A stretch of 64,000 nucleotides of DNA from Adhaeribacter pallidiroseus (GTDB taxonomy: Bacteria > Bacteroidota > Bacteroidia > Cytophagales > Hymenobacteraceae), in contig NZ_QASA01000001.1 in the NCBI RefSeq assembly GCF_003340495.1, positions 434,001 through 498,000 of the forward strand. The letters are read 5' to 3'. This document shows, one piece after another, positions 9,194 to 62,577 of the stretch. Position 1 is the stretch's first letter. Every line of letters starts with the position of its first letter. The notes below the pieces were generated by a model. The model was not told the DNA's origin, ran no database searches, and saw only the letters and a program-made list of their open reading frames with translations. The translations under genes and the position numbers were made by a program.

Positions 9194-9353
9194 AAAGCCC
9201 TTCGTTTCCTTTTCACTCGGATTTACTCGAGCTCTGCTTCTCTTACCTATTTATGTTAAACAATATGCTAGCTACTATGTACTAGCCTAAGAACTTTCAA
9301 ACATCAAAGCGGCGTGAGTCCGCTTCTTTCCTGGTAACAGGAACGTATAGTAA

Positions 9354-9461: not shown

Positions 9462-9478
9462 CCCCCTTTTTTCCCTTC

Positions 9479-16171: not shown

Positions 16172-16284
16172 AAATTTAAAAAATTGTCGAGATTATATAA
16201 TAACTAGTTATTCGTTAATAGGTGTTCTTTTTAAAATGCTACTTAGTTAATGATCATTTTGCTGCTTTAAGTATTGTTTTAATA

Positions 16285-29376: not shown

Positions 29377-29466
29377 CCTGGTTGTAACTTGTATTAAATG
29401 GGCTAATAAATGCGGCCAAATTTTTAAATTTTTGCATAGAAGGTGGCTCGTAGCCGCTGCAAAACT

Positions 29467-42279: not shown

Positions 42280-43083
42280 TTAGATTTGCGAGTAGGAGGT
42301 AGGTACTAAAAACGTGCGGGTAATGTTCGACACAATTTTAGCATCGGCGTATTCCGGCATGCCGCTTATTTTTTTCCATTCGGGGTCGCTGCCAAAGGTT
42401 TTCCAGTTCTGGTCGTGCTCCGCCATATCGTCGAAAGTAAGCAAGTAAGTTAAGTTAGGCCGCATTTCCCCAATAATAACTTCGCCAAAAAATACCGGCG
42501 TTAAACCTACCCGTTTAAAAATAGCAATTTCGCCTTTATTAAACATTTCAATTTTCTTTTTACCGGCGGCTTCGCTGGCGCTTTCGTAGCGGCGCAGTTC
42601 AAAAATACGGGATTTCTTTTCGGGTAATTCCATTTTAGCCATATTGGCAAATGCCTCCAGCAACGAACTTTCAATGCGCTGGTAAGCTGGTTCAGTAGCC
42701 GGCGCGTTTAAATAAGCGGCGCCAGCTTGCTGGTAAGCCGCATCGGCCAGTAAGCGTTCATTCATCCGGCCAAAATCTTCGATGGATTTAAACGGAATGA
42801 TTACGTATAATTTAGTAATGGCCGTGGTGGGTTGCTGTTGCGTAAATACGCCCACATTTTTGCTGCCTAAGCGGTTAAGCGCCGGAATAGCGGCATTCTG
42901 AAAATAATCTTCGACTAACTTTTGCTGAACATCGTTTTTTAAGGTGTAAACCCGTAATTCGTAATACTCGGGTTTCGTTGCTTTTTGCTTTACCGAGGCC
43001 AGGACCGGGTTTAAAAAAGGAACCGTACTGGTTAAACAGCCGCTCAATAGCGAAGCTTTTACAAAGGTACGTCGTTTCATCAT
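42280..43083 (-). CDS. NIPSNAP-family protein with twin-arginine-like signal
   Basis: This 267-residue protein starts MMKRRTFVKASLLSGCLTS, where RRTFVK resembles a Tat motif. The second Met (43080) is an equally good start. Two NIPSNAP-type ferredoxin-like repeats follow: YYELRVYTLKNDVQQKLVEDYFQNAAIPALNRLGSKNVGVF and SRIFELRRYESASEAAGKKKIEMFNKGEIAIFKRVGLTPVFFGE. This bacterial family is exported and often neighbours sugar-metabolism or oxidoreductase genes, but no reaction is established. It stands alone and is separated from the FG-GAP gene by a bidirectional terminator. Confidence 0.85.
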   Translation of the reverse strand: MMKRRTFVKASLLSGCLTSTVPFLNPVLASVKQKATKPEYYELRVYTLKNDVQQKLVEDYFQNAAIPALNRLGSKNVGVFTQQQPTTAITKLYVIIPFKSIEDFGRMNERLLADAAYQQAGAAYLNAPATEPAYQRIESSLLEAFANMAKMELPEKKSRIFELRRYESASEAAGKKKIEMFNKGEIAIFKRVGLTPVFFGEVIIGEMRPNLTYLLTFDDMAEHDQNWKTFGSDPEWKKISGMPEYADAKIVSNITRTFLVPTSYSQI

Positions 43084-43534
43084 GAAGTATAAATTCTGGT
43101 TTAATATAAAAAATTTAAAAAATGGAATCGTTCGCGCTCCATCAAGAACTTAAAGGGTAGAAAGAATAAAGTATTTAGTCCTTGAAAAAATAAAAAATTT
43201 AAAAAAAGAATAAGTAGGCGCAAACCCGATGCACGCTGAAGTAAATTAGAAAAAGATCTTTACCTGTGCAATCAAAACCATAACAATATCTGCTTTCTGG
43301 TTTAAAAACAAAATAATATTGTAATGGCTTAATTTTAAATAAGTAACAGGACAAAATTAAGTTGATAAAAACCTGAGTTTAAGTAATTGATTATTAATTT
43401 ATTAACGATCGAACAACGAACAACTAAAAACGACCAACTACTTAAATGTTTATGCTATTAAGTATAAGCGAGTTAGATCTTTTAAATTTTTCGTGTGTAA
43501 AAGTACTGGTGCTTTAGCCAGAAAGTAAACAGGA
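43084..43534. other. Intergenic region between NIPSNAP and nucleoid-associated protein genes
   Basis: These 451 AT-rich bases hold no supported gene. Three copies of the AT motif occur (43108-43122, 43192-43207, 43480-43491), the densest cluster in the window. No RNA structure is recognised. Confidence 0.55.
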
Positions 43535-44578
43535 TTAGCTCTCTTGTTTAAAAAACAGTTGATAGAAATGTAAACCGCGTTCTTCATCGTAGCCTTTTTG
43601 CATGTTTTCGGAGTTGCCGTGCACGTAAACATGAAAATTCTTGTCCAGCTTAATCACGCTTTTCAGGAAGCGGGTATTTTTCTTGAAAGCATTTTCGTGA
43701 ATGTCGAACTCCGGCTTTATTTCAAAGCCGCGATCGGTTTCAAATTCGGTTTTATAACTTTGGAAACTTTGAATTAAATCGGGTTGGGCAATCACTTCGT
43801 TCTGGAATTCCTGCAAATCAAAAACTTCTTTTTCTTTTAAAAATTTTACCGATTTATTCAGCAGATCGGCTTGTTCGCCGCGCGATACTTCAAACTCTTC
43901 GGGCAAACGCTTTTCCACGAACGCTTTGCACAAACTCATTACATTTTGGGTGTGGTGGTACGCATCCTGGCGCGATTGTACTTTTAAAAAATCGTCTTTC
44001 CAGTAAACGGCTTCTTCGCGTTTATTCAGGTTATCTACCGTGAGTACCACAAAACCATGTTCCCGGTCGGTGTTAAAAATGAGGCAGCCTTTATCGAGTT
44101 TATTTATGTTTACGCCGTCTTCGCTGTCAATGTCAAACGTATCGCCGCTGGGGTATATTTTCAGGTACGTTTCGCGGTTTTCCGATTTAAACAAACCTAC
44201 GGCTTCCAGGGCTTCACCATCCAGAACCAAATCGTGGAGGTAGGTTACGTAAAATTCGCCGCCTTTCACGTTGGGGTGCGTACTTTGCTCGTACAGGTGC
44301 CGGGCCAGGTTCTCCGATTGTTCCAGAAATGCTTCGGGATTATCAAATATCCGGGCCACAAAATTATACACTTCGTTCAGGTTAATATCCGACTCGTGGT
44401 ACAAATTATAATATGCCTCAGATTTAAACGGCGATAAAAAATAACGCTGCAATAAATCTTTTACGGTACTGTCCAGGTCGAGCGGTTTTTTAGAAAACTG
44501 AATGCTTTCGTCGCGGCTTTTATTGCCAACTTTGTGCAGAATAATGTGTTCTAGTTTAACTTCGGAAGTAACGAGCAT
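43535..44578 (-). CDS. Nucleoid-associated protein, NdpA/YejK (NA37) family
   Basis: This 347-residue protein begins LVTSEVKLEHIILHKVGNKSRDESIQFSKKPLDLD, the start typical of this family, and keeps the full family length. Conserved-looking segments include GGEFYVTYLHDLVLDGEALEAVGLFKSENRETYLKI and NKLDKGCLIFNTDREHGFVVLTVDN. NdpA proteins associate with the nucleoid, and their exact biochemical role is not settled. A well-matched promoter lies at 44607-44635, giving a short leader of roughly 20-30 bases. A small divergent membrane-protein gene starts 170 bp upstream. Confidence 0.85.
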   Translation of the reverse strand: MLVTSEVKLEHIILHKVGNKSRDESIQFSKKPLDLDSTVKDLLQRYFLSPFKSEAYYNLYHESDINLNEVYNFVARIFDNPEAFLEQSENLARHLYEQSTHPNVKGGEFYVTYLHDLVLDGEALEAVGLFKSENRETYLKIYPSGDTFDIDSEDGVNINKLDKGCLIFNTDREHGFVVLTVDNLNKREEAVYWKDDFLKVQSRQDAYHHTQNVMSLCKAFVEKRLPEEFEVSRGEQADLLNKSVKFLKEKEVFDLQEFQNEVIAQPDLIQSFQSYKTEFETDRGFEIKPEFDIHENAFKKNTRFLKSVIKLDKNFHVYVHGNSENMQKGYDEERGLHFYQLFFKQES

Positions 44579-44606
44579 AAACGCGGTTATTGAAAAAACA
44601 GAACCG

Positions 44607-44635
44607 CAAAGATACAGGTTTATGCGTACATCAAA
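44607..44635 (-). promoter_or_regulatory. Promoter of the nucleoid-associated protein gene
   Basis: Read on the minus strand, TTTG (44635-44632) is followed 17 bp later by TATCTTTG (44614-44607), matching the Bacteroidota -33/-7 pattern with slightly short spacing. The next base is C, as in the rRNA promoters. Confidence 0.55.
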
Positions 44636-44748
44636 TCAGGCAATCGGCAGAAGGAAAAAATTAAAAATATTAAAAGCCAATTAGCAATAATAGCCTTTAA
44701 CCCGATGCGTTGTAACTTTCAGGCAAAATGCCTACACTTGCATTTCTC

Positions 44749-44886
44749 ATGAACCGCGACAAACTAAAGCGTTATTTTAAAAAAATAGGCCTGGCCGGCT
44801 TCTTGTTCTTTTTAATTAAAGGCTTAATCTGGCTGTTTATTTTTATGGGCGGCTGGAAACTGGTTAGTCGTTGGTTAAACGGCTAA
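44749..44886 (+). CDS. Small single-pass membrane protein of 45 residues
   Basis: ATG 44749 gives MNRDKLKRYFKKIGLAGF, then a hydrophobic segment (FLFFLIKGLIWLFIFMGGW) and a short basic tail ending RWLNG. The charged N-terminus and single hydrophobic helix look like a genuine inner-membrane small protein. An in-frame ATG at 44728 would add seven residues. The last 12 bases overlap, tail to tail, the end of the SET-domain gene on the other strand. I recognise no named family. Confidence 0.6.
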   Translation: MNRDKLKRYFKKIGLAGFLFFLIKGLIWLFIFMGGWKLVSRWLNG

Positions 44887-45549
44887 AGCTACTTTTTCCG
44901 GTTGGTAATAGCAGTTTAAAATGGAATCTGGTTCTAAAATGCCGGCCGCAATTTGTTTTACTTTCTCCTGATATTGTGTTTCAATCAGTTCCGCGAGCGG
45001 TTGGGCTACCTGGTTAAAATATCTAAAAGCTTCTTTTATTTGCATATCCCATTCTCCATGGAAGTGTAGCAAATCGTTGGGCATTACTTTGGTGCGGGTG
45101 GTACCGGGTTCCGGTAAGCATGCAAATGGTTCGGTAGCATTTAAATAGCCGTAATCGTCGGTGAGTTCTTCGCCGGGGTAAATATCGCGCACCGCTAACT
45201 CAAAATTATAAGCTGTAGAGATGCAGTTAGAACGGAAGGAATGATTCACGAAGCGGGCATGATCCCAGCATAAAACAAAGTCACCTTTATTATCGCGGTA
45301 CGTGTAGGTGTTTACTATTTTTTGAAAAACCGAGGGCAACTGGCTTACTTTTTCGGGAGTAAAAACCTGATCGAGCGGGTCAAAAGCCCAGGTAATGGTA
45401 CCTTTCGGAATAAATTGGGTAGCTACCACACCGTAGCCTATTTCTGTACTAATAAATCGAAGTTCCGTGTGCGGATGAATCATATGGAAACAGGTTTCAG
45501 CTCTGATTTGAATGAATGGATTATCTTTAATCGAATAATGGCTACGCAT
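44875..45549 (-). CDS. SET-domain protein (putative lysine methyltransferase)
   Basis: This 224-residue protein shows SET-domain marks: GYGVVATQFIPKGTITWAFD near the start, the RFVNHSFRSNC (NHS) motif, and DIYPGEELTDDYGYL near the C-terminal end of the domain, where the usual ELTxDY is present. These form the S-adenosylmethionine and lysine channel in known SET enzymes. Bacterial targets are unknown here. Starting at Met23 (45483, MIHPHTELRF) would give a more compact SET protein and is a serious alternative start. The 3' end overlaps the small membrane protein gene by 12 bp on the opposite strand. Confidence 0.85.
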   Translation of the reverse strand: MRSHYSIKDNPFIQIRAETCFHMIHPHTELRFISTEIGYGVVATQFIPKGTITWAFDPLDQVFTPEKVSQLPSVFQKIVNTYTYRDNKGDFVLCWDHARFVNHSFRSNCISTAYNFELAVRDIYPGEELTDDYGYLNATEPFACLPEPGTTRTKVMPNDLLHFHGEWDMQIKEAFRYFNQVAQPLAELIETQYQEKVKQIAAGILEPDSILNCYYQPEKVALAV

Positions 45550-45784
45550 ATTTAGGCTTAGTTGTTATTCTAATATTAATAAAACTTCTGAGTATATTTT
45601 AGGAAAGAATAACTGAAAATTTTAAATTTTTGGGCGGATTATGGCTGCAGGTGGGAGCGTGTACCTTGTAAGGCCATATCAATGAATACGAAGTAGGAAT
45701 AACCACCTTTCATGCAATAGTTTATAAATTACATGTTGTTATGGGTAGAGTTCGCGTGAGCGGTCTCTACCCATTTTTTGTGCT

Positions 45785-45840
45785 GCCAATCTCTGATTGG
45801 CGTAATGGAATATGTTGGTAAACGCCAATCGGAGATTGGC
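45785..45840. repeat. Paired hairpins, REP-like intergenic repeat
   Basis: Two short palindromes, GCCAATCTCTGATTGGC (45785-45801) and GCCAATCGGAGATTGGC (45824-45840), each form a 7-bp stem with a 3-base loop. They are separated by 22 bp and could also pair with each other. The arrangement resembles a REP/BIME-type dispersed repeat. It lies in the 447-bp gap after the SET gene, which holds no gene that I can see. Confidence 0.65.
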
Positions 45841-45930
45841 TGTCCGGAAAGTGCGTAGAGCGCTACGCTAACTCTAAGCACAACAAAGCGGTTATTTCTA
45901 ACTCATAACTCTAAACTCATAACTTTTAAC

Positions 45931-45999
45931 TAAATAAAAAAGTACATAAAAAACGCTGTTGAGTAAACCAACAGCGTTTTTTATGTACTTTTTTATTTA
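45931..45999. terminator. Bidirectional terminator with perfect 30-bp arms
   Basis: Arms 45931-45960 and 45970-45999 are exact reverse complements around GAGTAAACC. The stem has a GC-rich apex (AACGCTGTT/AACAGCGTT) and A/T-runs on both sides. The outer end includes the stop codon of the 68-residue gene on the minus strand. It can stop transcription from both directions. Confidence 0.88.
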
Positions 46000-46203
46000 G
46001 TGACTGCCCGCCGAAGTACCCATATCCTGGCCCCCATCTTCGGTGCTGCTGGCATCGTGCCGGCCCCCTTTCGGTGGGTGTTTCGGATCGTCTACGTTTT
46101 GGTTACCGCCGCCGCTGCTACCAGTGGGCGCTTTCGGCACCGACCGGATATCTTTTAAAATATCGTCTTTTTTGTCGTCGCTTTTATCTTGGTTGTCTTT
46201 CAT
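45997..46203 (-). CDS. Small hydrophilic, probably disordered protein of 68 residues
   Basis: The product (MKDNQDKSDDKKDDILKDIR ... MGTSAGSH) is highly charged at the N-terminus, then rich in Gly, Ser, Pro and Asp, with no hydrophobic segment, so it is probably unstructured and cytoplasmic. The frame ends inside a strong terminator hairpin, which supports it being a real transcribed gene. No family is recognised. It lies 94 bp downstream of the OmpH-like gene on the same strand and could be co-transcribed with it. Confidence 0.5.
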   Translation of the reverse strand: MKDNQDKSDDKKDDILKDIRSVPKAPTGSSGGGNQNVDDPKHPPKGGRHDASSTEDGGQDMGTSAGSH

Positions 46204-46297
46204 CGTCTGTTGATTTAGTGAAACACCGCCGGCTTTGAATGAACCGGTTAATTGTTTACGCAGATTAGAAAGCGGAGTAGCAGAAAAATTTAAAAAA

Positions 46298-46948
46298 TTA
46301 CTTAATCCCCAGCTTGGTTTTTACCAGGGGCATAATATCGTGGCTGTCTTTGGCGTAAATAAACGAACCGGTGCTGGCATCAAAAATATAATCGTAACCG
46401 TTTTCTTTGCCTACATCTTTCACCGCTTTTTCAGCTTTATTTAAGATAGGCTTAAATAATTCTTCGCGCTTTGCGGCTACTTTTTGCTGCCCCGAAGCCT
46501 GTGATTGCTGCATTTGCTGTTCCAGGTCCTGAATCGCTTTTATTTTGGTTTGTTTAATCGCATCAACCATTGTTTTTTCCTGGGCCTGAAATTCCGAGAT
46601 TTGCTTTTGGTAGCTGGTCTGTAAACCGCCAAATTGTTTTTCTAAACCACCCACGTACGCTTGCAAACTGGCTTCGGCTTTTTTAGTTTCGGGCATTAAT
46701 TTTAATAACTCTGCCGAGTTAATGTAACCAAACTTTTGCCCAGTTCCGGTAGTTGCAGCGGCAACACCACCCTGGGTTTCCAGGGTAGTAGAATCTTCAG
46801 AAGATAAATTAATGGCAGGCTTATCTGTTGCCGCTGGCGTAGTGGCGGGGCTTTTGTCTTTTACTTTGGCATTTTGCTGGCAACCCGACAGAAACAAAGT
46901 TCCACTTAAAAAAACGCTTACACCAAACAGATAAATTGATTTTTTCAT
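46298..46948 (-). CDS. OmpH/Skp-family periplasmic chaperone-like lipoprotein
   Basis: This 216-residue protein has a lipoprotein signal (FLSGTLFLSGCQQN) and a low-complexity linker rich in Ala and Thr. The OmpH/Skp domain follows: KFGYINSAELLKLMPETKKAEASLQAYV, a long Gln/Lys-rich coiled coil, and KAVKDVGKENGYDYIFDASTGSFIYAKDSHDIMPLVKTKLG at the end. Soluble Skp chaperones hold unfolded outer-membrane proteins, and lipid-anchored forms occur in Bacteroidota. The stop codon is followed immediately by the AT motif (46284-46299). Confidence 0.9.
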   Translation of the reverse strand: MKKSIYLFGVSVFLSGTLFLSGCQQNAKVKDKSPATTPAATDKPAINLSSEDSTTLETQGGVAAATTGTGQKFGYINSAELLKLMPETKKAEASLQAYVGGLEKQFGGLQTSYQKQISEFQAQEKTMVDAIKQTKIKAIQDLEQQMQQSQASGQQKVAAKREELFKPILNKAEKAVKDVGKENGYDYIFDASTGSFIYAKDSHDIMPLVKTKLGIK

Positions 46949-47258
46949 TATGAATAGATACCGTTAAAAAGAATAAAAATTTAAATTAAAATACGAAATA
47001 GCATTATTTATCCTCTATTTCCTACGGGTAAGTGGCTTAAATTTAGCAGGGTTTTTACAAAAGCTAACAGTGAGGATACTGCCAATGGGCGAGGCTGTCG
47101 TTGGTGTCTTCACAAACGAACCTCTATGTTTTTGCGAAACTTCTAATGGCTACTAATTGGGTAATACCTTTAGGATAAGAAAGCGCCTCTATAATAATTT
47201 CGCTTTTATAGACCGTCAATAGGCAGTAAAATTTAAAAAAACGGCGGATTTTTCATTA
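46949..47258. other. Intergenic region between ompH-like and DUF1080 genes
   Basis: These 310 bp show no gene. AT motifs lie at both edges (about 46976 and 47228-47241). The promoter of the OmpH-like gene must lie here but no clear consensus is seen. Confidence 0.5.
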
Positions 47259-48128
47259 TTAAGATTTTGCGGCTGGTTTCGCAATTCGGGGTTTAGGCGG
47301 CGTTTGCGTTTTTAAATTAAGCAAACGCAAATTCCGAAAATCAATGGCGTGGCTTTCGGCTTGCAGCGCAATGTAGCCGGTTTTGAGCGGAGCGCCATCC
47401 TGGGCTTTCCAAATTTTGCTGTAGGCATCTTCTTTGCCTTGTTTCCAATACACTTCGCCTATTTCGGGTTTTTGGTAAGTAAACACCGTATCACCTTCAA
47501 TAATATGCCGGATCAGCGAATCGCCGTAAACTTGTATCTCCGCTTTTACCCAACGGTCGCCGTTATACGTTTTTGATTTGGAGTCGATGCAATGATCAGA
47601 AATTAACTTGCCTTGCATGTCGTGCATTTGCGTGCCGGGAGTACATAAATTGCCGGTGTGCCGTTCGCCGGTTCCTAAACCACCCAATAATTGCACTTCC
47701 AACGACACCGGAAATTCCTGACCCATGGTTAAACTTTTCGCCGATTGCGAGTGGTACATAATGCCGCTGTTACGCACGTTCCATGCTTCGCCACCGGGCA
47801 CCTGGTTGCCCAAAAAGCGGTACTCAAACTGCAAAATATAGTGCGAGTAAGGCGTTTTGTAATACATGTGCCCGTATTTGCCATCGAAGTTTTTGTATTC
47901 ATCATACGACACCCGGATCATATCGCCTTCGGCCCGGAAAGTGTTTTTGTAATTATCGTTTAGGGCATGGCCGGCAATTTTAATATCCCAGCCGGTTAAA
48001 TCTTTGCCGTTGTACAACGAAATCCATTTTTGCGTTTGGGTTTTTGTTTTTTGTTGCGCTAAAGCCGACGAAAGGGTAAAACTGAAAATCAGGGCGATAC
48101 AATAAATAGGGCGTAAGTTCCAGATCAT
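47259..48128 (-). CDS. DUF1080 (3-keto-disaccharide hydrolase-like) secreted protein
   Basis: This 289-residue protein has a signal peptide (PIYCIALIFSFTLSSALAQ) and one DUF1080/LamG-like jelly-roll domain: WISLYNGKDLTGWDIKI near the start, then YSHYILQFEYRFLG, NSGIMYHSQ, EVQLLGG and GYIALQAESHAIDFRNLRLLNL at the end. DUF1080 proteins bind or hydrolyse glycosides, and some cleave 3-keto-glucosides. A catalytic role here is not proven. It is one of two DUF1080 genes within 4 kb, in a minus-strand set with a PD40 protein. Confidence 0.87.
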   Translation of the reverse strand: MIWNLRPIYCIALIFSFTLSSALAQQKTKTQTQKWISLYNGKDLTGWDIKIAGHALNDNYKNTFRAEGDMIRVSYDEYKNFDGKYGHMYYKTPYSHYILQFEYRFLGNQVPGGEAWNVRNSGIMYHSQSAKSLTMGQEFPVSLEVQLLGGLGTGERHTGNLCTPGTQMHDMQGKLISDHCIDSKSKTYNGDRWVKAEIQVYGDSLIRHIIEGDTVFTYQKPEIGEVYWKQGKEDAYSKIWKAQDGAPLKTGYIALQAESHAIDFRNLRLLNLKTQTPPKPRIAKPAAKS

Positions 48129-48414
48129 GAGGAATGGATAAATATTTAAAGATGAAACCTGAACCGCCAGCCTGAAAAATTAAAAAATTTAAAAAATTGA
48201 GCCGGATGTTCTACTAAAATAGCATAGTAAGTAAAAGGACAAATGAAAAGAGATACTTCAGTTTCGCAAACAGACCATCAATTTGCCAATGACTAAGTAA
48301 CCGGACGAAATTACCTTAAACTATTTAATCTCATAATAAATTGCTTGAATTCAGATTTTTAATACCTATTAGTCTAGGATCTAATATCTAAATACTAGTG
48401 TCTAAGTTACTGAA

Positions 48415-49953: not shown

Positions 49954-50319
49954 TCGGAATAGATAGGTTGCAAACTGGCCAAAGATGATCGTTTCGGAAA
50001 AGCGCAGTCTTGGTTTTTAATGGTTACAAGATAAATATTTGCCACCATTATCGATACATTTTAAAATATTTATTACGCTCCCGTGAAAATTGGCTGGACC
50101 TTAATCAACAAATGGAGCACTTGGCTTTAGGCAGGCTGACTGTATAAAAATTTAAAAAATGAGAGTAGTAAGAGATAAACTAGTTCTGGCTTTTGCCGAA
50201 ACACCCGCAATCTGTGACCCGAATGAAGTGATGCCGATATTACCGGAATTCTGATTTATAAAATAAAAAAGACGCATCTAAGTGCGCCTTTGTACTATAA
50301 ATCCATTTTTAGATCAGGA
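49954..50319. other. Intergenic region between PD40 and second DUF1080 genes
   Basis: These 366 bp contain no gene that I can support. They hold one AT motif (50146-50160) and the minus-strand terminator at 50264-50290. Confidence 0.55.
50264..50290 (-). terminator. Intrinsic terminator after the DUF1080 gene
   Basis: On the minus strand, GGCGCA and TGCGTC form a short stem with one mismatch around CTTAGA, followed by TTTTTT, 30 bp after the stop codon. Confidence 0.65.
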
Positions 50320-51087: not shown

Positions 51088-51195
51088 TTTAGCTTTTTGG
51101 TAGAAGGTTATAAAGGCCAATATACAAGTTACCCGCGAACTTTATTTATTTTGTTCGGCAACAATTATTCTGATTACCTAAAGAAAGGCTTACGG

Positions 51196-51861: not shown

Positions 51862-51934
51862 TTCCCGGAGTAGAGTTACGGCTTAGGCGCTGCTGTTTTT
51901 CGGTTGTGCGCTTAAGCCGTATTTTTAATTTTTA

Positions 51935-53182: not shown

Positions 53183-53829
53183 GGTATTAATAATAAAACA
53201 AATTACGGATGAGTAGTTTGTTTTAAGCTCTGTGCTAAAGGTACTGTATTATTTAAAATATGCGAATGCCAGGTTTATTTGCTGTTTGTTCCTGGTGTCT
53301 TTTTCGGTTTTTAGACTGCGGTGCTATTTAGTTATAACTATTTACCGGCGCAAGTTTAAAAAACTATCCGGTAACTTTCGTGACTTTACTTCGGCAAATA
53401 ACCGCAACAATCAACTTCACGGATTAGGTCTTATACTTTAAAAAATTAAGATAATAGTTATGCAGCTGTACTTACTTAGAGCCTTTTCGTGTCTTCAGGC
53501 TCAAGTGCTATCTAGTTTGTTATATAATTCGTTTGCCTTCTGGCCGGCGGGCCTCGTTACCCCTCCGCTTACGGCACCTCCCCTAAAAACAGGGGAGGAG
53601 ATGTAGCTATTCCGATTTTTCCTTTCCTCGACTTGGTCTTCGAATTTTGCTTCGCAGAACCGAAACCTTAAAAGGCCTTCAATAGTAAAACTGGTGTTAG
53701 TTACACTTAGCTGCGGCTATTACTTCTTTCATTTTTCTAATACTTAAATTTTAATAATCTGAATAGAAGGAGTTATTAACCTAAGTGCTTATAATCAATA
53801 AATTTTTTAAATTTTCTGTGATTCTACGT
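53183..53829. other. Long gap between proB and proA
   Basis: These 647 bp hold no supported gene. They contain a hairpin at 53577-53598 in a GC-richer patch (about 53530-53605) and an AT motif at 53802-53815 close to the proB stop. I recognise no riboswitch or T-box structure. Confidence 0.55.
53577..53598. repeat. GC-rich hairpin in the proB-proA gap
   Basis: CCTCCCCT and AGGGGAGG form a perfect 8-bp stem around AAAAAC. The surrounding GC-rich patch differs from its AT-rich neighbours and looks like a dispersed intergenic repeat unit. Confidence 0.6.
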
Positions 53830-54918
53830 TTAACCTACTTCCGTATTTAAGAAAAGATAATCGTAGTGTACGAGTGGTTTTTGGTTTTGCTGGCCCAGGC
53901 GTTCCTGCGCTTTATCGGAGCTGTACTCGGCAATGCCTTGGCCGATTAGTTTTTGGTTTTCGTCGAGTAGTTTAATAATATCTCCTTTTTGAAATTCACC
54001 AATAATATTAATAACTCCCACCGGTAACAAACTGGTGGCTTTGGCCGAGGTAAGAGCGGCTTTAGCGCCGGCGTTGATCTGCACGGCGCCTTTGGCGTAA
54101 TTCTCGGCGTGGGCAATCCATTTTTTGCGGCCCGATTTGTTTTTGCTAGGAATAAAGCGGGTATTTACTACTTCCTGCTGCAGCACTTTCGGGATAATAT
54201 TCTCTGTTTTGCCGTTGGCAATGTGTACCGCAATGCCCAATTGCGCTACTTTGTGGGCCATGTGGCTCTTGGTAAGCATGCCGCCGCGGCCAAATTGTGA
54301 TCGCTGGGTAGTAACAAAAGCCCCAAAACCGGTAGCTTCGGGCTGGATATCCGTAATTACCACGGATGCCGGATTTTTCGGGTCGCCGTTGTAGATGCCG
54401 TTTACGTTGCTCAAAATAATTAAAGCGTCGGCGTTTAACATAGAAGCAATTAAGCCGGCCAACTCGTCGTTATCGGTAAACATGAGCTCCGTTACCGAGA
54501 TTACGTCGTTCTCGTTCACAACCGGAATAACGTTATTCTGGAGTAAAACCTGGAAGCAATTTTTTAAATTTAAGTAATGCTGCCGGTCCCGGAAATCTTC
54601 TTTGGTAACCAATACCTGGGCACAAATTAAATCGTGTTGGCCGAAAAGTTCGGAATAAGTATTTATCAGTTTTACCTGCCCCACGGCGGCCAGTAATTGC
54701 CGGCTGGTAACGGCATCGGCTTTTTCGGAAACACGAATCAAGCTCCGCCCCGAAGCTACCGCTCCCGACGAAACGACAATTACCTCTTTGCCCTGTTTTT
54801 TTAACTGCGTAATTTGCTCTACCAGGTGCTGCATGCGGGCAAGGTCGGGCATGCCGTTTTCCTGGGTAAGTACGTTAGAACCTATTTTTACAATTAATCT
54901 GCGGTAGGAGAGCGCCAT
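53830..54918 (-). CDS. proB: Glutamate 5-kinase with PUA domain
   Basis: This protein of about 362 residues phosphorylates glutamate with ATP, the first and feedback-regulated step of proline synthesis. ATG 54918 (MALSYRRLIVKIGSNVLT) is preferred because it places the amino-acid-kinase start correctly. The longer frame to 54981 adds 21 unlike residues. Family motifs include VVSSGAVASGRSL, PVVNENDVISVTELMFTDNDELAGLIASMLNADALIILSNVNGIYNGDP, GRGGMLTKSHMAHKVAQLGIAVHIANG, and a C-terminal PUA domain (GVINIIGEFQKGDIIKLLDENQKLIGQGIAEYSS). The AT motif occurs inside the gene at 54559-54572, encoding LKN. proA is the next gene downstream. Confidence 0.96.
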   Translation of the reverse strand: MALSYRRLIVKIGSNVLTQENGMPDLARMQHLVEQITQLKKQGKEVIVVSSGAVASGRSLIRVSEKADAVTSRQLLAAVGQVKLINTYSELFGQHDLICAQVLVTKEDFRDRQHYLNLKNCFQVLLQNNVIPVVNENDVISVTELMFTDNDELAGLIASMLNADALIILSNVNGIYNGDPKNPASVVITDIQPEATGFGAFVTTQRSQFGRGGMLTKSHMAHKVAQLGIAVHIANGKTENIIPKVLQQEVVNTRFIPSKNKSGRKKWIAHAENYAKGAVQINAGAKAALTSAKATSLLPVGVINIIGEFQKGDIIKLLDENQKLIGQGIAEYSSDKAQERLGQQNQKPLVHYDYLFLNTEVG

Positions 54919-55049
54919 AAGAAATCTGCACAAAAATTTACTGGCGGTAATGTTAAGCGTTTCTGCGGAATATTGCAGCACAATTTTATTTCGTACAGCA
55001 GATTCCTTAATTTCCCGGCCATTATAGCGGCTACTCTGGTTCTTCCGAA

Positions 55050-55508
55050 ATGACTTTAACTACCGATTTTATTCTTCAGCACAGTGTTTTGTTAGCTGAA
55101 TCTTTTAAGCGTGCCACCGGGCAAGTTTTACTAACCGGCGATTTTACTCCCGAAAAATTGGCGCCGCAACTCTACCAAGCGCCTTTTGTATTGCTGTCAC
55201 ACGGTACGCAGACCGATCCGGTATTTAATTACGCGAACCAAACGGCGCAACAACTTTGGGAAATGTCCTGGCAAGCGTTTACGCAATTGCCCTCCCGGCT
55301 TTCGGCGGAGCCCGTGGCCGTAGCCGAAAGACAAGCCATGCTGGAAGAAGCCCGCCAAAAAGGATTTATCTCGAACTACAACGGCGTCCGGATTTCGAGT
55401 ACCGGTAAACGGTTTATCATTAAAAACGCTATTCTCTGGAATATTTACGACTCCACCGGAACATACCATGGGCAGGCCGCTACTTTTAAAGAATGGGAGT
55501 TTTTATAG
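55050..55508 (+). CDS. MEKHLA-domain protein
   Basis: This 152-residue protein is essentially one MEKHLA domain, a PAS-like fold known from plant HD-ZIP III proteins and found alone in bacteria. Visible segments are FILQHSVLLAESFKRATGQVLL, APFVLLSHGTQTDPVFNYANQTAQQLWEMSWQAFTQLPSRLSAEP and GFISNYNGVRISSTGKRFIIKNAILWNIYDSTGTYHGQAATF. It is probably a small sensory or ligand-binding protein of unknown role. It is divergent from proB with 131 bp between starts and has no same-strand partner nearby. Confidence 0.85.
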   Translation: MTLTTDFILQHSVLLAESFKRATGQVLLTGDFTPEKLAPQLYQAPFVLLSHGTQTDPVFNYANQTAQQLWEMSWQAFTQLPSRLSAEPVAVAERQAMLEEARQKGFISNYNGVRISSTGKRFIIKNAILWNIYDSTGTYHGQAATFKEWEFL

Positions 55509-55749
55509 TGGTAAAGCTTTTAATTGCGGGAAGCGTTTATTTATGAAAAGCCATGGCAAAGCTAAAAGTACGCTTCCGAAATTTAAATTAAAATAAGGTC
55601 CTATTTAGTTTGTTGAAACACCTATTATAAACTGCTTTTCTAATTATAAGAAGTAGGCTTAGATTTCTCGACTGGTTCGAAATGAATTTGGTTTTTTGTA
55701 ACCTCCTACAATTAGGTTTTTTTAAATTTTTCTATTTTTCACATCTATT

Positions 55750-57048
55750 TTACTGCGCTTGACCAAAGTGTTTATCGGCAAAGCTGAGGTACTGCTGCCA
55801 ATCGTAAAGCGTTACATCGTGTTTGCCGCTGCGGTTGTGGTACCGCACCGTTTCACCAACGGGTTGGTTTAAGCCGGGCATTGCCGAACTGTCAATGCCT
55901 TTTTTGCCGAATAAAGCATAAACGGGAGCAGTAGCCTGAGCGCTCAAAAATTCGCCTTTCGGGTCGGACCATTGATCTTCCTGGGCGCTGGCTACGTACA
56001 AAGGGCGAGGTGCTACCAAAGCTAATAATTGGTGCTGATCGACGGGCATTTGGTTAGGATTATGATCGAACTTGCGGTAATTTGGGCTGAACCAATGCGG
56101 AAATGCTTCATTTAAGCGGGCTACGGTTTCGCCGTACCACCGCCGGGCCAGAGCTGCTCCGCCTTCGCCGGATTCGTTGGAAATAATTATAGCAAAGCGC
56201 GGATCGTTTACGCCGGCCCACAACGCTGCTTTACCAATGCGCGAATGCCCTTGCAGGGCTACTTTTTTAGCGTTAACCGCCGGTTCGGTTTCTAAATAAT
56301 CCAACATGCGGCTCATGCCCCAGGCCCAAGCCCCGATTGCTCCCCACTCGTTCGGTTGAATTTTTAAATTTTTACGGAGTTGCGTCCGGATACCGGTTTT
56401 ATAGCCTTCGGGATAATCAGGTTCCAGGTCGCCGTAGTAGGCAGTAGCTAAGCCGTAACCGCGCGCGATTATTTCTTCCACTACCCAACGGCTGGCTTGT
56501 AAACCGCGCGTTTGTTCGTTGGCGCGGTTCCCGGTTATGCCCGCATTTTTATCTTCGGCTACCCAGCGCGAGGTAACTTTAATCTGCGGATCGGGGTGCA
56601 CGGTGTGATTGCCTTTAAAATTTAAACCCGCAAATACGGGTACAGGTCCTTTCGCTTGTTTGGGCAGGAACAGCAACACGTCCATGCTGGCCCCGGTATC
56701 CGCGGGAGTAAAGTAAATAGTTACTTGCTTTAAAATAGCCTTGCCGCCCAAGGCTTGTTTATCTTCCGAAACTACCTTGTAGTGCATACCGGCGGGTTTA
56801 CCCGGTAATCTTCCGTACACATTATCGGCAAACAACTTTAAGAGCGCGGGTCGTTGGGTGGTGTTCCACTGCGTGGCCGAAGTTATTTTCTGGCCACCGG
56901 TAGTTTGGAGCAAAGGTGGCAGGGTGTAGGTGCCCACCTGCGATTCGTCGTAGTTAAATTTTCCCGGTTCCTGCGCCAAGCCCGGGAAAAAAGATAAACT
57001 CGCGCAGCTAAACAACCCGAATGTTAATAGTACCGCTGTTTTTTTCAT
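55750..57048 (-). CDS. CE15-like glucuronoyl esterase / alpha-beta hydrolase, secreted
   Basis: This protein of about 432 residues starts at ATG 57048, where a signal peptide begins (MKKTAVLLTFGLFSCASLSFFPGLAQ). A start at 57099 would prepend 17 unlike residues. The alpha/beta-hydrolase core has the nucleophile elbow GHSRIGKAALW, matching the G-x-SR-x-GK form of glucuronoyl esterases, ISNESGEGGAALARRWYGE, the RPLYVASAQEDQWSDPKGEFL region, and a late His in SGKHDVTLYDWQQYL. Such enzymes cut ester links between glucuronic acid on xylan and lignin. The family call rests on these motifs, so the substrate is inference. It carries the AT motif at 56359-56373, encoding LKN. Confidence 0.87.
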   Translation of the reverse strand: MKKTAVLLTFGLFSCASLSFFPGLAQEPGKFNYDESQVGTYTLPPLLQTTGGQKITSATQWNTTQRPALLKLFADNVYGRLPGKPAGMHYKVVSEDKQALGGKAILKQVTIYFTPADTGASMDVLLFLPKQAKGPVPVFAGLNFKGNHTVHPDPQIKVTSRWVAEDKNAGITGNRANEQTRGLQASRWVVEEIIARGYGLATAYYGDLEPDYPEGYKTGIRTQLRKNLKIQPNEWGAIGAWAWGMSRMLDYLETEPAVNAKKVALQGHSRIGKAALWAGVNDPRFAIIISNESGEGGAALARRWYGETVARLNEAFPHWFSPNYRKFDHNPNQMPVDQHQLLALVAPRPLYVASAQEDQWSDPKGEFLSAQATAPVYALFGKKGIDSSAMPGLNQPVGETVRYHNRSGKHDVTLYDWQQYLSFADKHFGQAQ

Positions 57049-57227
57049 AGTTGGCTGAAGTAAAAAAGGAAGATAAGTATTTACCGGGAAACAGCACAAA
57101 AGCTGGAAATAAATTATCTTTAAGCACTTATTTAATAAGACAAATTAGCGGGCTAATTTCCGTGGTAAGTAACTGTAATAAATTTGAAGCAGCTTCAAGA
57201 ATAATTTAAAAAATCAGCCGGCGCGGT

Positions 57228-59590
57228 ATGTGGCGACAGAGAATAACGCGATTGATTACCTTTAATCGGTCTTATCAATCCTGCACAAAATTTAAAAAAA
57301 CAACGGTGGGCGGAGTCCTGATTGTGGCCTTGCTGGGCCTGTTGCTGGTTTTTTTAAATTTTTGGTTTCCGTTGCGGGTACAAATCACTTATTCGCCGGT
57401 AATTACCGCCAGTGATGGCAGCGTAATTAACGCTTTTTTAAGTCCGGATGATAAATGGCGCATGCAGCTGCAAACCCACGAAATTAATCCCTTGCTCAAA
57501 AAAGCCATTCTCCTGAAAGAAGACCGGTATTTTTATTATCACCCGGGCGTGAACCCGGTAGCTTTGAGCCGGGCTTTGGTAAATAATGTAATTGCGGGAA
57601 AAACTACTTCCGGCGCTTCCACCATTACCATGCAGGTGGCCCGTTTGCTTTACCCTAGGCAAAGAACAATTCCGAATAAATTAAAAGAGTTGTTCCGAGC
57701 CTTAAAGTTAGAACTAAATTACAGCAAAGACGAAATTTTAACTTTATACCTGAACCTCGTTCCTTTTGGCGGCAATATCGAAGGGATAAAAGCCGCCTCG
57801 GTGTTATACTTTCAACAATCGCCGCAGGAGCTTAGCCTGGCCCAGGCCGTTACTTTAACCGTTATTCCGAATAAGCCTTCGAGCTTGCGAATTGGCATGA
57901 AAAACGACCGGATTGTAAGTTTCCGGAACAAGTGGCTCTGGTATTTTGCCAAACAAAAAGCTTTTCCGGCCAAAGAAATTGCCGATGCCATCAACGAACC
58001 GTTAGTCGCTTATCGAAGCGAAGCTCCGCAGATTGCGCCGCATTTTGCCTACCGGCTGCAAAAACAATTCCCGAACCAGGCCATTATTCAAACTAATTTA
58101 AACCGCGCCATTCAGGAAAAAGTGGCCCAATTAGCCTATAATTACCAAGGAACGCTGCGGGCCAGGAATATCCGGAATGCTTCGGTGTTAGTTATTAATA
58201 ATCAAACCAAAGCGGTAGAGGCTTACCTGGGTTCCGCCGATTTTTCCGACCACGAACACGGGGGACAGGTAGATGGCGTTCGGGCGAACCGATCGCCGGG
58301 CAGTACTTTAAAGCCGCTTTTATACGCTCTGGCGTTCGACAAAGGCCTGATTACCCCCGCACCGTGATCAGCGATGTGCCCGTCGATTACGCCGGCTACC
58401 GCCCCGAAAATTATTTCGGCAACTACAACGGCAACATTACCATTGAATATGCCCTGGCTACCTCGTTAAACATTCCGGCGGTAAAAATCCTCGACCAGCT
58501 TACTGTACCGGTTTTTGTAGATAAATTAAAACAAGCGCAGTTTTCCCAAATTAAAAAAACCGGCGATCAATTAGGTTTATCGGTGATTTTGGGCGGTTGT
58601 GATGTAAAGCTCGAAGAACTAACGGCCTTGTACGCCAGCTTTGCCAGCCAGGGACGCTACGCGCCCTTGCGGTGGCAGCAACAAGATCCGTTAAAGTACC
58701 AGCGGCAACTCTTGTCGCCCACCGCTACTTACCTGGTAAACCAGATTTTAACGCAGTTGCAGCGCCCCGATTTACCGCATAATTTTCAGAACAGCGGGCA
58801 TTTGCCCCGCATCGCCTGGAAAACCGGCACCTCGTACGGCCGCAAAGATGCCTGGAGCATTGGGTACAACAAAAAATACACAGTAGGCGTATGGGTCGGT
58901 AATTTTTCGGGCGAAGGCGTACCCGAGCTAAACGGTACCGACTCGGCGACCCCCTTGTTGTTTGATATTTTTAATACTATTGATTATAACTCCGCCAACG
59001 ATTGGTTTGCGGCTCCGCCGGGTTTGGCCCAGCGTTCTGTTTGTACGGCCACGGGCTTGCCCGCCAATACTTTTTGCCAAAACCGGGTACTCGATGCTTA
59101 TCTGCCCGGTATTTCGCCGGTAGCCAAATGCACGCATTTAAAACCCGTAATGGTTTCGGAAAATCAGCAATTTGCGTATTGTACTACGTGCTTGCCCGAA
59201 AGCGGCTATTTGCAGAAATGGTACCCGAATTATACGCCGGAAATTCTGGCTTTTTACGAAGCGGAACACATACCCTATGAGAAAATACCGGCTCATAATC
59301 CGCAGTGTTCGCGCATTTTCAGTGAGTTTGCGCCGGTGATTACCGCCCCAACTTCCAATATGGAGTATTTACTGGAACGGGCCGAAAAACAAAAATTAAT
59401 GCTGCATTGCAATACCCACAACGAAGTAAAACAAGTGTATTGGTACATCAACGACCAGTTGCTGCAAGCGGTCCCTGTCAATCAAAATTTGTTCTTCACG
59501 CCCGAAAAAGCGGGTAAATACAAAATCTCCTGCCTCGATGATCAGGGCCGCAATACCGATAGCTACATCACCGTCCGGTTTCTGGATTAA
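57228..59590 (+). CDS. pbpC: Penicillin-binding protein 1C, with a -1 frameshift in a C-run
   Basis: The bifunctional peptidoglycan synthase has an N-terminal membrane anchor (GVLIVALLGLLLVFLNFWF), a GT51 glycosyltransferase (LLKEDRYFYYHPGVNPVALSRA ... SGASTITMQVARLL), a transpeptidase with STLK, SLN and KTGTS motifs, and a C-terminal PBP1C-type domain. The frame breaks at five C bases (58354-58358): upstream reads GLITPAP then stops at 58367, while VISDVPVDYAGYRPENY continues in the other frame from 58364. One more C would give GLITPRTVISDVPVDY and a single 787-residue protein, the normal length. As read, the two halves overlap as GTGA, and the break lies between the SxxK and SxN motifs, so split products would be inactive as transpeptidase. 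The AT motif occurs twice inside the gene and once at its stop. Confidence 0.92.
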
Positions 59591-59677
59591 AATTTAAAAA
59601 AAAGCTATACTTGCTTGCATAGGTTGCGTATTTTCTAATAAACCGTTTCTTTTATTAAAAAGTAAATTACCAATTTT

Positions 59678-61393
59678 ATGATAACAGCTTTTTACACCAG
59701 GCTCTTAAAGCAGGGAAGTGTTTGTTTATTGACTTTCTTGTTATTGCTGCAAGCTTGTTCCGGGCCCAGAAATATGAGCCGGGGTCCGGTAGCAAGCAAC
59801 GGGATGGTAGTTAGTGCGCACCCGGAAGCCAGTCGGGTAGGAGCCGAAATTTTAAAAACCGGGGGTAATGCCGTAGATGCCGCCATTGCGGTGCAATTTG
59901 CCTTAGCGGTGGTGTTACCGGCCGCGGGCAATATCGGGGGCGGTGGGTTTATGGTAATCCGGCAGCAAAACGGCGAAACCAATACGCTCGATTACCGGGA
60001 AATGGCCCCGGCCCAAGCCAGCCGGGATATGTACCTCGACGCGCAAGGCAATGTTATTCCTAATCTCAGCATTCAGGGGCATTTGGCAGCTGGCGTTCCC
60101 GGTTCGGTAGACGGAATGGTAAATGCCCACCAAAAATACGGTTCGCTGCCCTGGGCCCAGCTGGTGCAACCTGCCGTAGATCTGGCCGCTAAAGGTTTTG
60201 CTATTACCGAGAAAGAAGCCAACGGCTTAAATAACAACCAGGCTAATTTTTTAAAATTTAACGATGCTACCTGCGCCTTTATTCGCCAAACGCCTTGGAA
60301 AGCGGGTGATAATTTGGTGCAAGCTGACTTAGGGCAAACCTTAACCCGCATTCGCGATAATGGCCGGGCCGGTTTTTACGAAGGCGAAACCGCCCGTTTG
60401 CTGGTTGCCGAAATGCAGGAAGGCAAAGGCTTCATCTCTCAGCAAGATCTGCAAAATTACCAGGCCAAGTGGCGGCAACCCGTAATTGGTAAGTACAAGG
60501 GTTACCGTATTATTTCCATGCCGCCGCCTTCCAGCGGGGGAATTGCTTTATTGCAACTACTACGTTTGGTGGAACCTTATAATCTCCATAAATACGGCTG
60601 GAACTCCGTAAAAGCGGTGCATTTATTAACCGAGGCCGAACGTCGCGTGTACGCCGACCGTTCCGAATATTTGGGTGATCCTGATTTTTACAAAGTGCCC
60701 GCCAAAGCATTACTCGATACGGCTTACCTAACTGCGCGCATGCAGGATTTTAACGCAAAGCAAGCCACCCCGAGCGCCCGTATCAAACCCGGCAACTTAA
60801 CCAACTACGAACACGAAGAAACTACGCATTTTTCGGTGGTAGATAAAGCCGGCAACGCGGTATCGGTAACGACTACTTTAAACGGCGGTTACGGCAATCA
60901 CGTGGTAGTAGACGGCGCCGGCTTTTTACTTAATAACGAAATGGACGATTTTAGCGCCAAGCCCGGCGTACCCAATATGTTTGGTTTGATAGGCACGGCC
61001 GCAAACGCCATTGCTCCCGGCAAACGCATGCTCAGCTCCATGACGCCCACCATCCTGGAACGCGGCGGTAAATTATTCATGGTGGTGGGTACCCCCGGGG
61101 GTTCCACGATTATTACTTCCGTTTTTCAAACCATCCTGAATGTACTGGAACACGACATGGGCATGCAGCAAGCCGTAACCGCGAAAAGAATCCATTCGCA
61201 GTGGTTGCCCGACGAAATTCGGTACGAGGATAACGCCTTAAGCGCGAAAGAAATTAAAAAATTAAGTAAAATGGGGCATACTTTAAAAGATACCCGCGCC
61301 ATTGGCCGTGTAGATGCAATTCTAGTGTTACCCGATGGCAAACTGGAAGGCGGCGCCGATCCCCGCGGCGATGATACGGCTACGGGGCATTAG
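59678..61393 (+). CDS. ggt: Gamma-glutamyltransferase, lipoprotein
   Basis: This 571-residue protein has a lipoprotein signal ([14 protein letters not shown]). GGT marks include [67 protein letters not shown], and the autoprocessing/catalytic Thr in [24 protein letters not shown], which becomes the N-terminus of the small subunit. [40 protein letters not shown] forms the later active-site region. The enzyme hydrolyses glutathione and other gamma-glutamyl compounds, here probably in the periplasm. It follows pbpC by 87 bp on the same strand. Confidence 0.95.
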
Positions 61394-61591
61394 ATTTTTT
61401 CATTCTATAAAGCTTTTAGAGAATAGGAATTAAAATTATAGCATTATTTACGAATTATTATGTGGAGACTGATATAGGCTCCGAAGATATGCAGTAGAAA
61501 AAGCTAACTTTTAAGCACTCTGGTCAAGAACAATTTATAAGCAAGCCAAAACCAAATACCGACTGCTTGGTTATTTACCAAAAAACTGCTC

Positions 61592-62407
61592 ATGCCCGAA
61601 CTGCCCGAAGTAGAAACTTACCGCCGCTATTTTGAAGAAACAGCCCTTGGCCAAACCGTAGTCGATCTGAAAGCCGAAGACCCGCGTCGCCAACTAACCA
61701 CCGATTACGATACTTTACTGCAGGCGCTGAAAGGAAACCAGTTCGTGGATACGCACCGCATTGGCAAGCATTTTTTAATAAATTTAAGTACGGGCAAAGT
61801 ACTGGTGCTGCATTTCGGGATGACCGGTGACCTGGCTTATTACCGCGACGAAGAAGATACCCCGCGTTTCGCGCGCATTGTTTTTTACTTCCAGAACGGA
61901 TTTCGGCTGGCCTTTATTGACTCGCGTAAATTCGGGCGCGTGGGTTTAGCAGCTTCCGTCGAAGAGTATCAAAAGACTAAAGCCTTAGGTCCCGATGCCC
62001 TGGATATTACCTCACCGCAATTACAAGCAAGTTTAGAAAAACGCAAAGCACCAATTAAAACCTTATTGCTCGACCAAAAAGTTTTGGCCGGTATTGGCAA
62101 CTGGATTGCCGACGAAGTTTTGTTTCAGGCCAAAATTAATCCGGCCCGGTTGGCGAATACCTTAACTCTTCCTGAATACGAACACTTGCACGCGGCTATT
62201 CAACTGGTTTTAAAAACCGCTATCGAGCACGAAGCTATTTACCAAAATTTTCCGAAATCATTCTTGATTCATGCCCGCGGCTGGGACGAGGTAGTAGAAA
62301 CTACCGTGGCCGAACGGCGGGTTTGTCCAAGGCACCAGACTCCTCTGGAAATTATGAAAGTAGGCGGAAGAACCACTTATTTTTGTCCGGTTTGTCAACC
62401 ACTCTAA
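61592..62407 (+). CDS. Fpg/Nei-family DNA glycosylase/AP lyase with a C-H-C-C zinc finger
   Basis: This 271-residue protein starts MPELPEVETYRRYFEE: Pro2 and Glu3 are the catalytic pair of the family. The middle has GKHFLINLSTGKVLVLHFGMTGDL and the helix-two-turn-helix region LLLDQKVLAGIGNWIADEVLFQAKI. The C-terminal finger reads CPRHQTPLEIMKVGGRTTYFCPVC, in which the second ligand is His where four Cys are usual. It removes oxidised bases such as 8-oxoguanine in base-excision repair, and whether it is MutM or an Nei-type enzyme is not settled from sequence. It lies 199 bp after ggt on the same strand. Confidence 0.92.
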   Translation: MPELPEVETYRRYFEETALGQTVVDLKAEDPRRQLTTDYDTLLQALKGNQFVDTHRIGKHFLINLSTGKVLVLHFGMTGDLAYYRDEEDTPRFARIVFYFQNGFRLAFIDSRKFGRVGLAASVEEYQKTKALGPDALDITSPQLQASLEKRKAPIKTLLLDQKVLAGIGNWIADEVLFQAKINPARLANTLTLPEYEHLHAAIQLVLKTAIEHEAIYQNFPKSFLIHARGWDEVVETTVAERRVCPRHQTPLEIMKVGGRTTYFCPVCQPL

Positions 62408-62577
62408 TCGGTAAGGCTATCTTTACCGGGCAAATAACTTATTTTTAAATTTTATCTTTTATCCGTATCTAAAACAGCACCTTTATTTCCTGACTTTTTA
62501 CCAAAGGATTCGTATTTGCAAGAAAAGGCTAGGTATTGTTTAAATGCCGGGGCGGGGTAGTACTATTTAAAAAGTAA

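Follow-up and report, generated by a model that had tools for sequence, protein, structure and literature searches.

A high-copy, lineage-specific AT word with helically phased flanks in the genome of Adhaeribacter pallidiroseus

A stretch of 64,000 nucleotides from Adhaeribacter pallidiroseus (the window; bases 434001-498000 of a 6.26-Mb contig, in a whole genome of 6.43 Mb coded G000) contains repeated copies of a short AT-only word (12-15 letters; exact 11-letter form AAATTTAAAAA), which recurs about once per 3,000 letters in this genome. The word is over-represented, obeys a sharp run-length grammar, abounds in one lineage of the genus while a second word is frequent in a sister species, is biased in its location towards gene ends, and is flanked by DNA whose AT content oscillates with the helical turn. 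We regard the word as real and lineage-specific with very high confidence. Our interpretation, held tentatively and at slightly below an even chance, is that it is the central part of a sequence recognised by a protein that bends or wraps DNA and whose specificity differs between sister species.

Abundance, grammar and lineage distribution

The original prediction held that the recurrence of the motif in the window exceeds chance. Its abundance was compared with third-, fourth- and sixth-order Markov models in 2.0 Mb of G000 (both strands), the region used for all Markov comparisons. The 11-mer AAATTTAAAAA occurs there 707 times, against 43.0, 56.3 and 146.6 expected copies, respectively, i.e. 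about 16 times the third-order expectation, which bears out the claim. When only intergenic DNA was considered, 529 copies were counted (28.0 expected from the third-order and 40.6 from the fourth-order model). In the full 2.0 Mb, the 12-mer AAAATTTAAAAA (567 copies versus 16.4 and 23.1) had the top z-score among 12-mers seen at least 60 times. The whole genome contains 2146 exact 11-mers (0.33 per kb), distributed over the strands without bias (1068 and 1078).

Analysis of maximal runs revealed the grammar A(4-5)T(3)A(5-7). With at least four A on the left and at least five on the right, the central run is T3 in 429 cases, compared with 71 for T1, 84 for T2, 54 for T4 and 10 for T5. The word is not palindromic, and it is polar: the 13-mer AAAATTTAAAAAA is present in 1201 copies in the whole genome and its reversal in 285. 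The A-rich form is slightly more frequent on the presumed leading strand (390 versus 317), a weak bias that is possibly a by-product of gene orientation.

The distribution of the word was determined in eight genomes of the genus (including G000, G002, G003, G004 and G007), one of which is 78% complete. The exact 11-mer is abundant in G007 (1587 copies) as well as in G000, the six other genomes containing 52 to 306 copies. The 12-mer was found 1708 times in G000, 1252 times in G007, 208 times in G004, 160 times in G003 and at most 45 times in the rest of the genus; in 196 other genomes of the family it did not exceed 17 copies each. Among 390 genomes drawn from the order, in which the genus was represented only by G000 and G007, AAAATTTAAAAAA reached 723 copies in G007 and at most 113 outside these two, and in the genome with 113 copies the reversed control was nearly equal (92).

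AT content does not explain this bloom, because G004 has a lower GC content (41.7% in the 400 kb analyzed, compared with 43.0% in a 0.8-Mb block of G000) and few copies (24 in the same 400 kb). Plain AT-richness was rejected as the cause of the word on the evidence of the Markov models, the intergenic-only models, the run-length grammar and this AT-rich sister genome.

For local analyses of sister DNA, 408 kb of G007, 400 kb of G004 and 60 kb of G003 were used. The grammar of G007 is looser (T3 to T5), as exemplified by AAATTTTAAAAA, with 1096 copies in the G007 genome versus 569 in G000. The density of T3-T5 copies in G007 is 3.19 per kb in intergenic DNA and 0.27 per kb inside genes, and such copies are present in 21 of 30 convergent, 67 of 120 tandem and 11 of 17 divergent gaps. 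The over-represented AT-rich words of G004 include ATTTACTAAA and ATTTACTTTT, the most extreme 12-mers of this genome coming from longer repeats. The pattern ATTTACTWWWT is polar and high-copy in G004 (1451 copies versus 257 for the reversed control, whole genome), with 279 copies in G000, 288 in G007, 378 in G003 and 94-217 in the others; its shorter form ATTTACTWWW occurs in G004 at 0.86 per kb of intergenic DNA and 0.31 per kb inside genes. No corresponding word was found in the 60 kb of G003. The earlier suggestion of a genome-wide keyword is supported by the lineage-specific bloom, the rival word in a sister species and the sharp run-length grammar.

Location relative to genes and helically phased flanks

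Gene positions were obtained with our own open reading frame (ORF) caller, which assigned 72-79% of the DNA to coding sequence and certainly missed some genes. In the 2.0 Mb of G000, 549 of the 707 copies lie outside called genes, at a density 11-fold higher than inside (1.15 versus 0.10 per kb). The predicted enrichment at gene ends is present: density falls from 4.5 per kb in the first 10 nt past stop codons to 0.5 per kb beyond 300 nt, while AT content over the same span changes only from 0.69 to 0.64. A similar but weaker trend is present for ordinary A6/T6 tracts (13.0 to 5.3 per kb). Of the gaps 30-400 bp long, 60 of 126 convergent, 164 of 550 tandem and 29 of 94 divergent ones contain a copy, which corresponds to 3.21, 1.88 and 1.42 copies per kb (AT content 0.658, 0.657 and 0.682, respectively). 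The TAA stop codon is itself part of a copy at 22 of 1,329 genes, 11 in each orientation. In the first 40 nt past stops there are 93 copies in the A-rich and 55 in the T-rich orientation, and the distance from stop to copy is not fixed. Inside genes the word is enriched over synonymous shuffles, although this enrichment is non-specific, other AT words being likewise enriched.

The density of copies per intergenic base increases with the GC content of the surrounding coding DNA (rho 0.33, p 0.0008), and a 20-kb bin of 31% GC contains 2 copies. Since density is lower where more of the DNA is uncalled (rho -0.56), missed genes may contribute to this trend. The possibility of a xenogeneic-silencer site, which would be enriched in AT-rich foreign DNA, was not supported by the rise of density with coding GC and the poverty of the 31%-GC bin. 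Close pairs are fewer in G000 than in a placement null (32 versus 52 +/- 6.6 at less than 100 bp; 75 versus 106 +/- 9.3 at less than 300 bp), although the coefficient of variation of spacing does not differ from the null and the depletion is at most weak in G007 and G004.

The AT content around intergenic copies of G000 oscillates on both sides with a period of 10.3-10.9 bp. Peaks are located near -24, -34 and -45 and near +28, +38 and +49 relative to T3, and the oscillation sinks to the far-flank level at about -70 and +50, a reach of ~60 bp. Phasing was measured as the normalised power of AT content around the centre, calculated for each flank separately and given here as two sides. The 548 intergenic copies yielded 76.7 / 25.7, compared with 1.7 / 2.1 for 3,281 other AT runs of 11-16 bp (maximum over 500 subsamples 7.0 / 9.2), and plain T6 tracts showed no phasing (2.0 / 1.5, n=1,746). 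The power remained at 61.6 / 20.3 when coding positions were masked; a jitter null applied to these values (maxima 16.0 / 12.1) is not fully independent, and the AT-run control is the better one. The pair-distance table and the first autocorrelation were dominated by the AT word itself.

Longer repeat families were rejected as an explanation: among 630 intergenic copies of the 10-letter core, 65 have a longer flank in common with another copy (191 of 548 at a looser threshold). They are not the source of the phasing, because it survives the removal of flank-sharing copies (357 left, 59.5 / 23.3). Upstream power per copy dropped with weaker cores (0.161, 0.096 and 0.030). Upstream phasing was detected in all seven gene-context strata (8.4 to 39.7), with downstream values ranging from 1.7 in convergent gaps to 20.1. 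When 4,025 6-mers and 34,848 8-mers of G000 were used as centres, TTTAAA and TTTAAAAA ranked first by total power (near 138, the medians being 2.8 and 2.4, respectively). Around the small set of coding copies (n=147), the values were 11.8 at a period of 8.7 and 9.1 at 10.7.

In G007, T3-T5 copies gave 15.7 / 11.5 (n=361); the power was highest at periods of 11.4 and 12.0, of which the second lies at the limit of the tested range. Phasing around ATTTACTWWW in G004 is one-sided (14.8 versus 1.5, n=184), and the same word in G000 showed none (0.9 / 2.0, n=227). The sister-species evidence is supportive, not strong. We conclude with high confidence for G000, and with moderate confidence for the sisters, that the phased flanks belong to the AT word.

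Copies in the window and their origin

In exact form, AAATTTAAAAA or its complement is found 19 times in the window (11 on the + and 8 on the - strand), 14 times between genes and five times inside called genes. All 21 places named in the original prediction carry the word or a close variant, those at 2024, 16329, 43480 and 45617 being variants, and 17 of the 19 exact copies are among them. The proposed cluster at 43000-62500 holds 14 of the 19, and copies are present within proB, the esterase gene and pbpC as reported. Two copies of the window overlap a stop codon (16170 and 59589), and one starts immediately behind a stop (46284).

The copy of proB located at 54560..54571 (-) has identical letters in G007, and alignment with six sisters without the word is gap-free, the difference consisting of substitutions. 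Another copy (53803..53815, -) lies 14 nt past the stop of this AA_kinase/PUA gene (53830-54918, -). Among named genomes, those of Pontibacter, Hymenobacter and Rufibacter have the proB genes closest to this one, in keeping with a position near or within the Hymenobacteraceae. The copy inside the glucuronyl-esterase-family gene (56361..56373, -) is also identical in G007 and differs in G004 and G003; these align without gaps, and the Asn and Lys of G000 and G007 correspond to Ser and Gln in them. At both of these coding loci the word was gained by substitution. A third coding copy (57349..57363, -), placed inside the first pbpC ORF, is identical in G007 and not in G003, where a two-codon length difference adjoins the word. 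In total, 3 of 5 coding 11-mers are identical in G007, compared with 86 of 482 other all-AT 11-mers (Fisher p 0.045); at aligned sites, none of five is identical in G004 and none of two in G003. Intergenic DNA is mostly unalignable between the species, and intergenic copy positions change fast. In 46 paralogous comparisons within G000, most of them based on poor alignments, no gap of 6 or more was observed in the core; insertion may still be the origin of intergenic copies.

The remaining copies are mostly intergenic. AAAAATTTAAAAAA (16170..16183, +) overlaps the stop codon of a phosphotriesterase-family gene (15152-16171, +) in a convergent gap. TTTTTAAATTTTT (29421..29433, -) lies in a convergent gap whose G007 counterpart also contains copies, the copy at 55717..55731 (-) in another convergent gap, and that at 32045..32058 (-) in a divergent one. 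Two copies (43108..43122 and 43192..43207, both +) share the gap upstream of a NIPSNAP-family gene (42280-43083, -). The copy at 46284..46297 (+) begins directly past the stop of an OmpH-like gene (46298-46948, -), and that at 47228..47241 (+) is 17 nt past the stop of gene 47259-48128 (-), with a G007 copy in the same orientation at a nearly equal distance. Intergenic copies are also present at 48182..48196 and 50146..50159 (both +), and a further one (62442..62453, -) is 34 nt past a stop. The copy at 57287..57300 (+) is 5 nt ahead of a called start and within a longer ORF if the start is at 57228, and that at 59589..59603 (+) overlaps the stop of the second pbpC ORF. Two copies were missing from the earlier list: 32932..32946 (+; exact 11-mer at 32934), within gene 32172-33212, and 63905..63916 (+; exact 11-mer at 63906), inside a gene.

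A complete ribosomal RNA (rRNA) operon (16S, two transfer RNAs, 23S, 5S) is located at 4198-9463, and no exact copy follows it until 16170; the motif-poor first stretch of the window is partly due to the space occupied by this operon. The gene of the 37-kDa nucleoid-associated protein NA37 (43535-44578, -) has three motif copies or variants in the 450 bp past its end. The penicillin-binding protein gene pbpC consists of two ORFs in different frames (57306-58367 and 58364-59590), which form a single frame in G007 and G003; the split in G000 represents either a frameshift or a sequencing error.

Several other sequence features of G000 were recorded. Imperfect palindromes on GTCATTCAGGAGGAACCTATT recur in intergenic DNA (contig 1 near 3497318, 3500727, 4857711 and elsewhere), often adjoining the AT word, and similar ones are present in G004. 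A repeat containing AGTAGTTGGTCGTTTTTAGTTGTTCGTTGTTCG is found in the window (~43400-43445) and at several intergenic places of G000, some of them beside the AT word; it may be behind the over-represented ACGAACAAC words. Long A/T homopolymers are nearly absent from the 2.0 Mb, with no A11/T11 versus ~78 expected (third-order model, both strands) and one run of 10, and they are similarly scarce in the analyzed parts of G007 and G004. CCGG palindromes are over-represented in the same 2.0 Mb, as shown by TTCCGGAA (544 copies versus 219 third-order and 374 fourth-order) and ATCCGGAT (340 versus 129 and 251).

Candidate explanations

According to the proposal of a DNA-bending or -wrapping protein, A(4-5)T(3)A(5-7) would be the hard core of a recognition site of ~100 bp, present more than 2,000 times in the G000 genome. 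A sequence-specific protein would bind the core and bend or wrap the DNA on either side, and AT-rich and GC-rich stretches would alternate with each helical turn because the DNA is bent or wrapped round the core-bound protein. Such a protein would most likely act on the chromosome, either in its organisation or in relieving torsional stress at the ends of transcription units, and the sites would be concentrated at gene ends, in permissive DNA. The specificity of the protein may have drifted, one sister having a looser core (T3 to T5) and another ATTTACTWWWT. This explanation is favoured because it accounts together for the exact, polar and species-specific core, the phasing and the loose gene-end location. 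As for the single step that a protein of shifting specificity reads the word, we consider the chances about even. The original prediction of a nucleoid-protein site is indirectly supported by the phased flanks tied to the word; it did not hold for NA37 and HU as the reader, since both are present in all eight genus genomes regardless of the bloom (NA37 once in each; HU once in seven and twice in G002, where the second match is weak, the HU-HIG model matching the same HU gene).

Several observations weigh against the binding of such a protein. No binding protein was identified, the two tested ones (NA37 and HU) not tracking the bloom. The conservation of coding copies rests on three sites, all within the window. 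Retention of intergenic copies between G000 and G007 is not significant: a copy is present in both in 12 of 31 matched gaps (p 0.076), rarely at the same place, and within 100 nt past the stop at 8 of 44 genes (p 0.34). The 6.7 kb downstream of the rRNA operon contain no exact copy. With respect to phasing in G000, TTTTCC and GGAAAA surpass TTTAAA among 6-mers when power is calculated per copy. Moreover, AAATTAAAAAA, picked as a control, is also phased (11.3 / 4.4, n=152), as are TTTAAA runs without the full word (19.0 / 19.1, n=1,195); we read both as degenerate sites. In all-word scans, the G007 word (13.0) is level with unrelated words and the lead of the G004 word (15.0) is narrow. The values for plain TTTACT in G004 are 4.3 / 5.0; the 10-letter core of G000 gives 2.2 / 1.0 in that genome, its 42 copies being too few for a judgement either way. 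The gap bias of the G004 word is weak (2.13, 1.05 and 1.68 per kb in convergent, tandem and divergent gaps, respectively).

It is also conceivable, although unlikely, that the word is a candidate self-recognition word for natural DNA uptake, like the uptake signal sequence (USS) and the DNA uptake sequence (DUS), and was spread by preferential uptake and recombination into species dialects. The high copy number without strand bias, the scarcity of close pairs, the gain by substitution at coding loci, the AT segments at helical-turn spacing and the few copies in the 31%-GC bin would all agree with this, and most such traits are described in the consulted parts of PMC1626085 (USS) and PMC3630211 (DUS). 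The USS of Pasteurellaceae is likewise a short high-copy word without strand bias that arises by mutation, has subclade variants (AAGTGCGGT and ACAAGCGGT) and is accompanied by AT-rich segments at approximately helical spacing (PMC1626085, sections consulted). Distinct words following phylogeny occur in related Neisseriaceae, and intergenic DUS copies are often inverted pairs, as those of the AT word are sometimes (PMC3630211, in part). The AT word is clade-specific in the same manner, with AAAATTTAAAAAA in G000 and G007 and a different word, ATTTACTWWWT, in G004. Riemerella columbina, of the same phylum, is reported to prefer its own DNA. The same paper gives AT-rich k-mers of high frequency, among them TTTAAAAA in Flavobacterium johnsoniae, with base composition as the sole standard of comparison.

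However, the core of the AT word is AT-only, its density is lower than that of USS and DUS (near 1 per kb), its copies strongly avoid called genes, and phasing extends to ~60 bp, beyond the two AT segments given for USS in the portion of PMC1626085 consulted. The same portion describes DUS without flanking motifs, and DUS has a known receptor, ComP (PMC3630211, in part). The ComEC family is present in all eight genus genomes, yet also in 10 of 14 control genomes. The type IV pilus ATPase family PF00437, the pilus family searched, was over the cut-off in none of the eight (weak sub-cut-off matches in four) compared with 13 of 14 controls.

We consider it improbable that a mutational or neutral process multiplies the word and that purifying selection leaves copies where they are least harmful, i.e. 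at gene ends. Permissive accumulation predicts the observed order of density (convergent, tandem, divergent gaps) and the rarity within genes, and it is in line with the fast turnover of intergenic positions and the enrichment of other AT words in genes over synonymous shuffles. It is opposed by the helical phasing, which accompanies the word and is not seen around other AT runs, by the sharp grammar and polarity, and by the identical coding copies in G007.

Gyrase is highly conserved, and the core of its sites would not be expected to differ between sister species as that of the AT word does. It is quite improbable that the word marks strong DNA gyrase sites, at which ~130 bp are wrapped and which are needed ahead of transcription, hence at gene ends and in convergent gaps. 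The consulted part of PMC6379681 describes an Escherichia coli motif of 130 bp with a GC periodicity of 10.75 bp on both sides, and cleavage sites that gather downstream of transcribed units; the period of the AT word, the fading of its signal at ~60 bp and its preference for convergent gaps resemble this helically phased motif. Nevertheless, the E. coli motif is described as symmetrical and as too degenerate to be picked up by standard motif finders (PMC6379681, same part), whereas the AT word has a hard, species-variable core with asymmetric flanks, one-sided in G004. The AT word is placed in neither the uptake nor the gyrase family because it fails a test of each (PF00437 for the former, symmetry without a hard core for the latter).

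The idea that the word is the U-tract of intrinsic transcription terminators is very improbable and was rejected for most copies on the basis of stems and folding energy: although gene-end bias is present and perfect hairpins adjoin a few copies, in some cases between two inverted ones, only 3.5% of 547 intergenic copies have a stem with a score of 14 or more before the T-tract (7.2% of 1,849 ordinary T6 tracts and 1.1% of shuffles), and the A-rich orientation is the commoner one past stops. Of the original suggestion of a 3'-end signal, the location bias therefore stands; the terminator function does not, hairpins being rare, both orientations being used and the stop distance being variable.

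As regards other known systems, HIP1 (GCGATCGC) of cyanobacteria is also a high-copy lineage-specific word, but it is a palindrome linked to DNA methyltransferases, whereas the AT word is AT-only, polar and mostly intergenic. Literature searches on Bacteroidetes, Adhaeribacter and Cytophagales, with most subscription journals outside their scope, returned no description of such a word among the matches listed.

Two families of competent Proteobacteria are known to have genome-wide words that come in species dialects, and cyanobacteria have such words in another form. The AT word may possibly, though rather doubtfully, represent a new class of species mark in Bacteroidota, with an AT-only core, ~100 bp of phased DNA, a fast-evolving wrapping protein and dialects, and without classical pilus uptake. 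If the proposal of a DNA-bending or -wrapping protein is true, this would be a Bacteroidota case with an AT-only word and flanks phased over several turns, in which a DNA-reading protein shapes the composition of a whole genome and changes its specificity between sister species.

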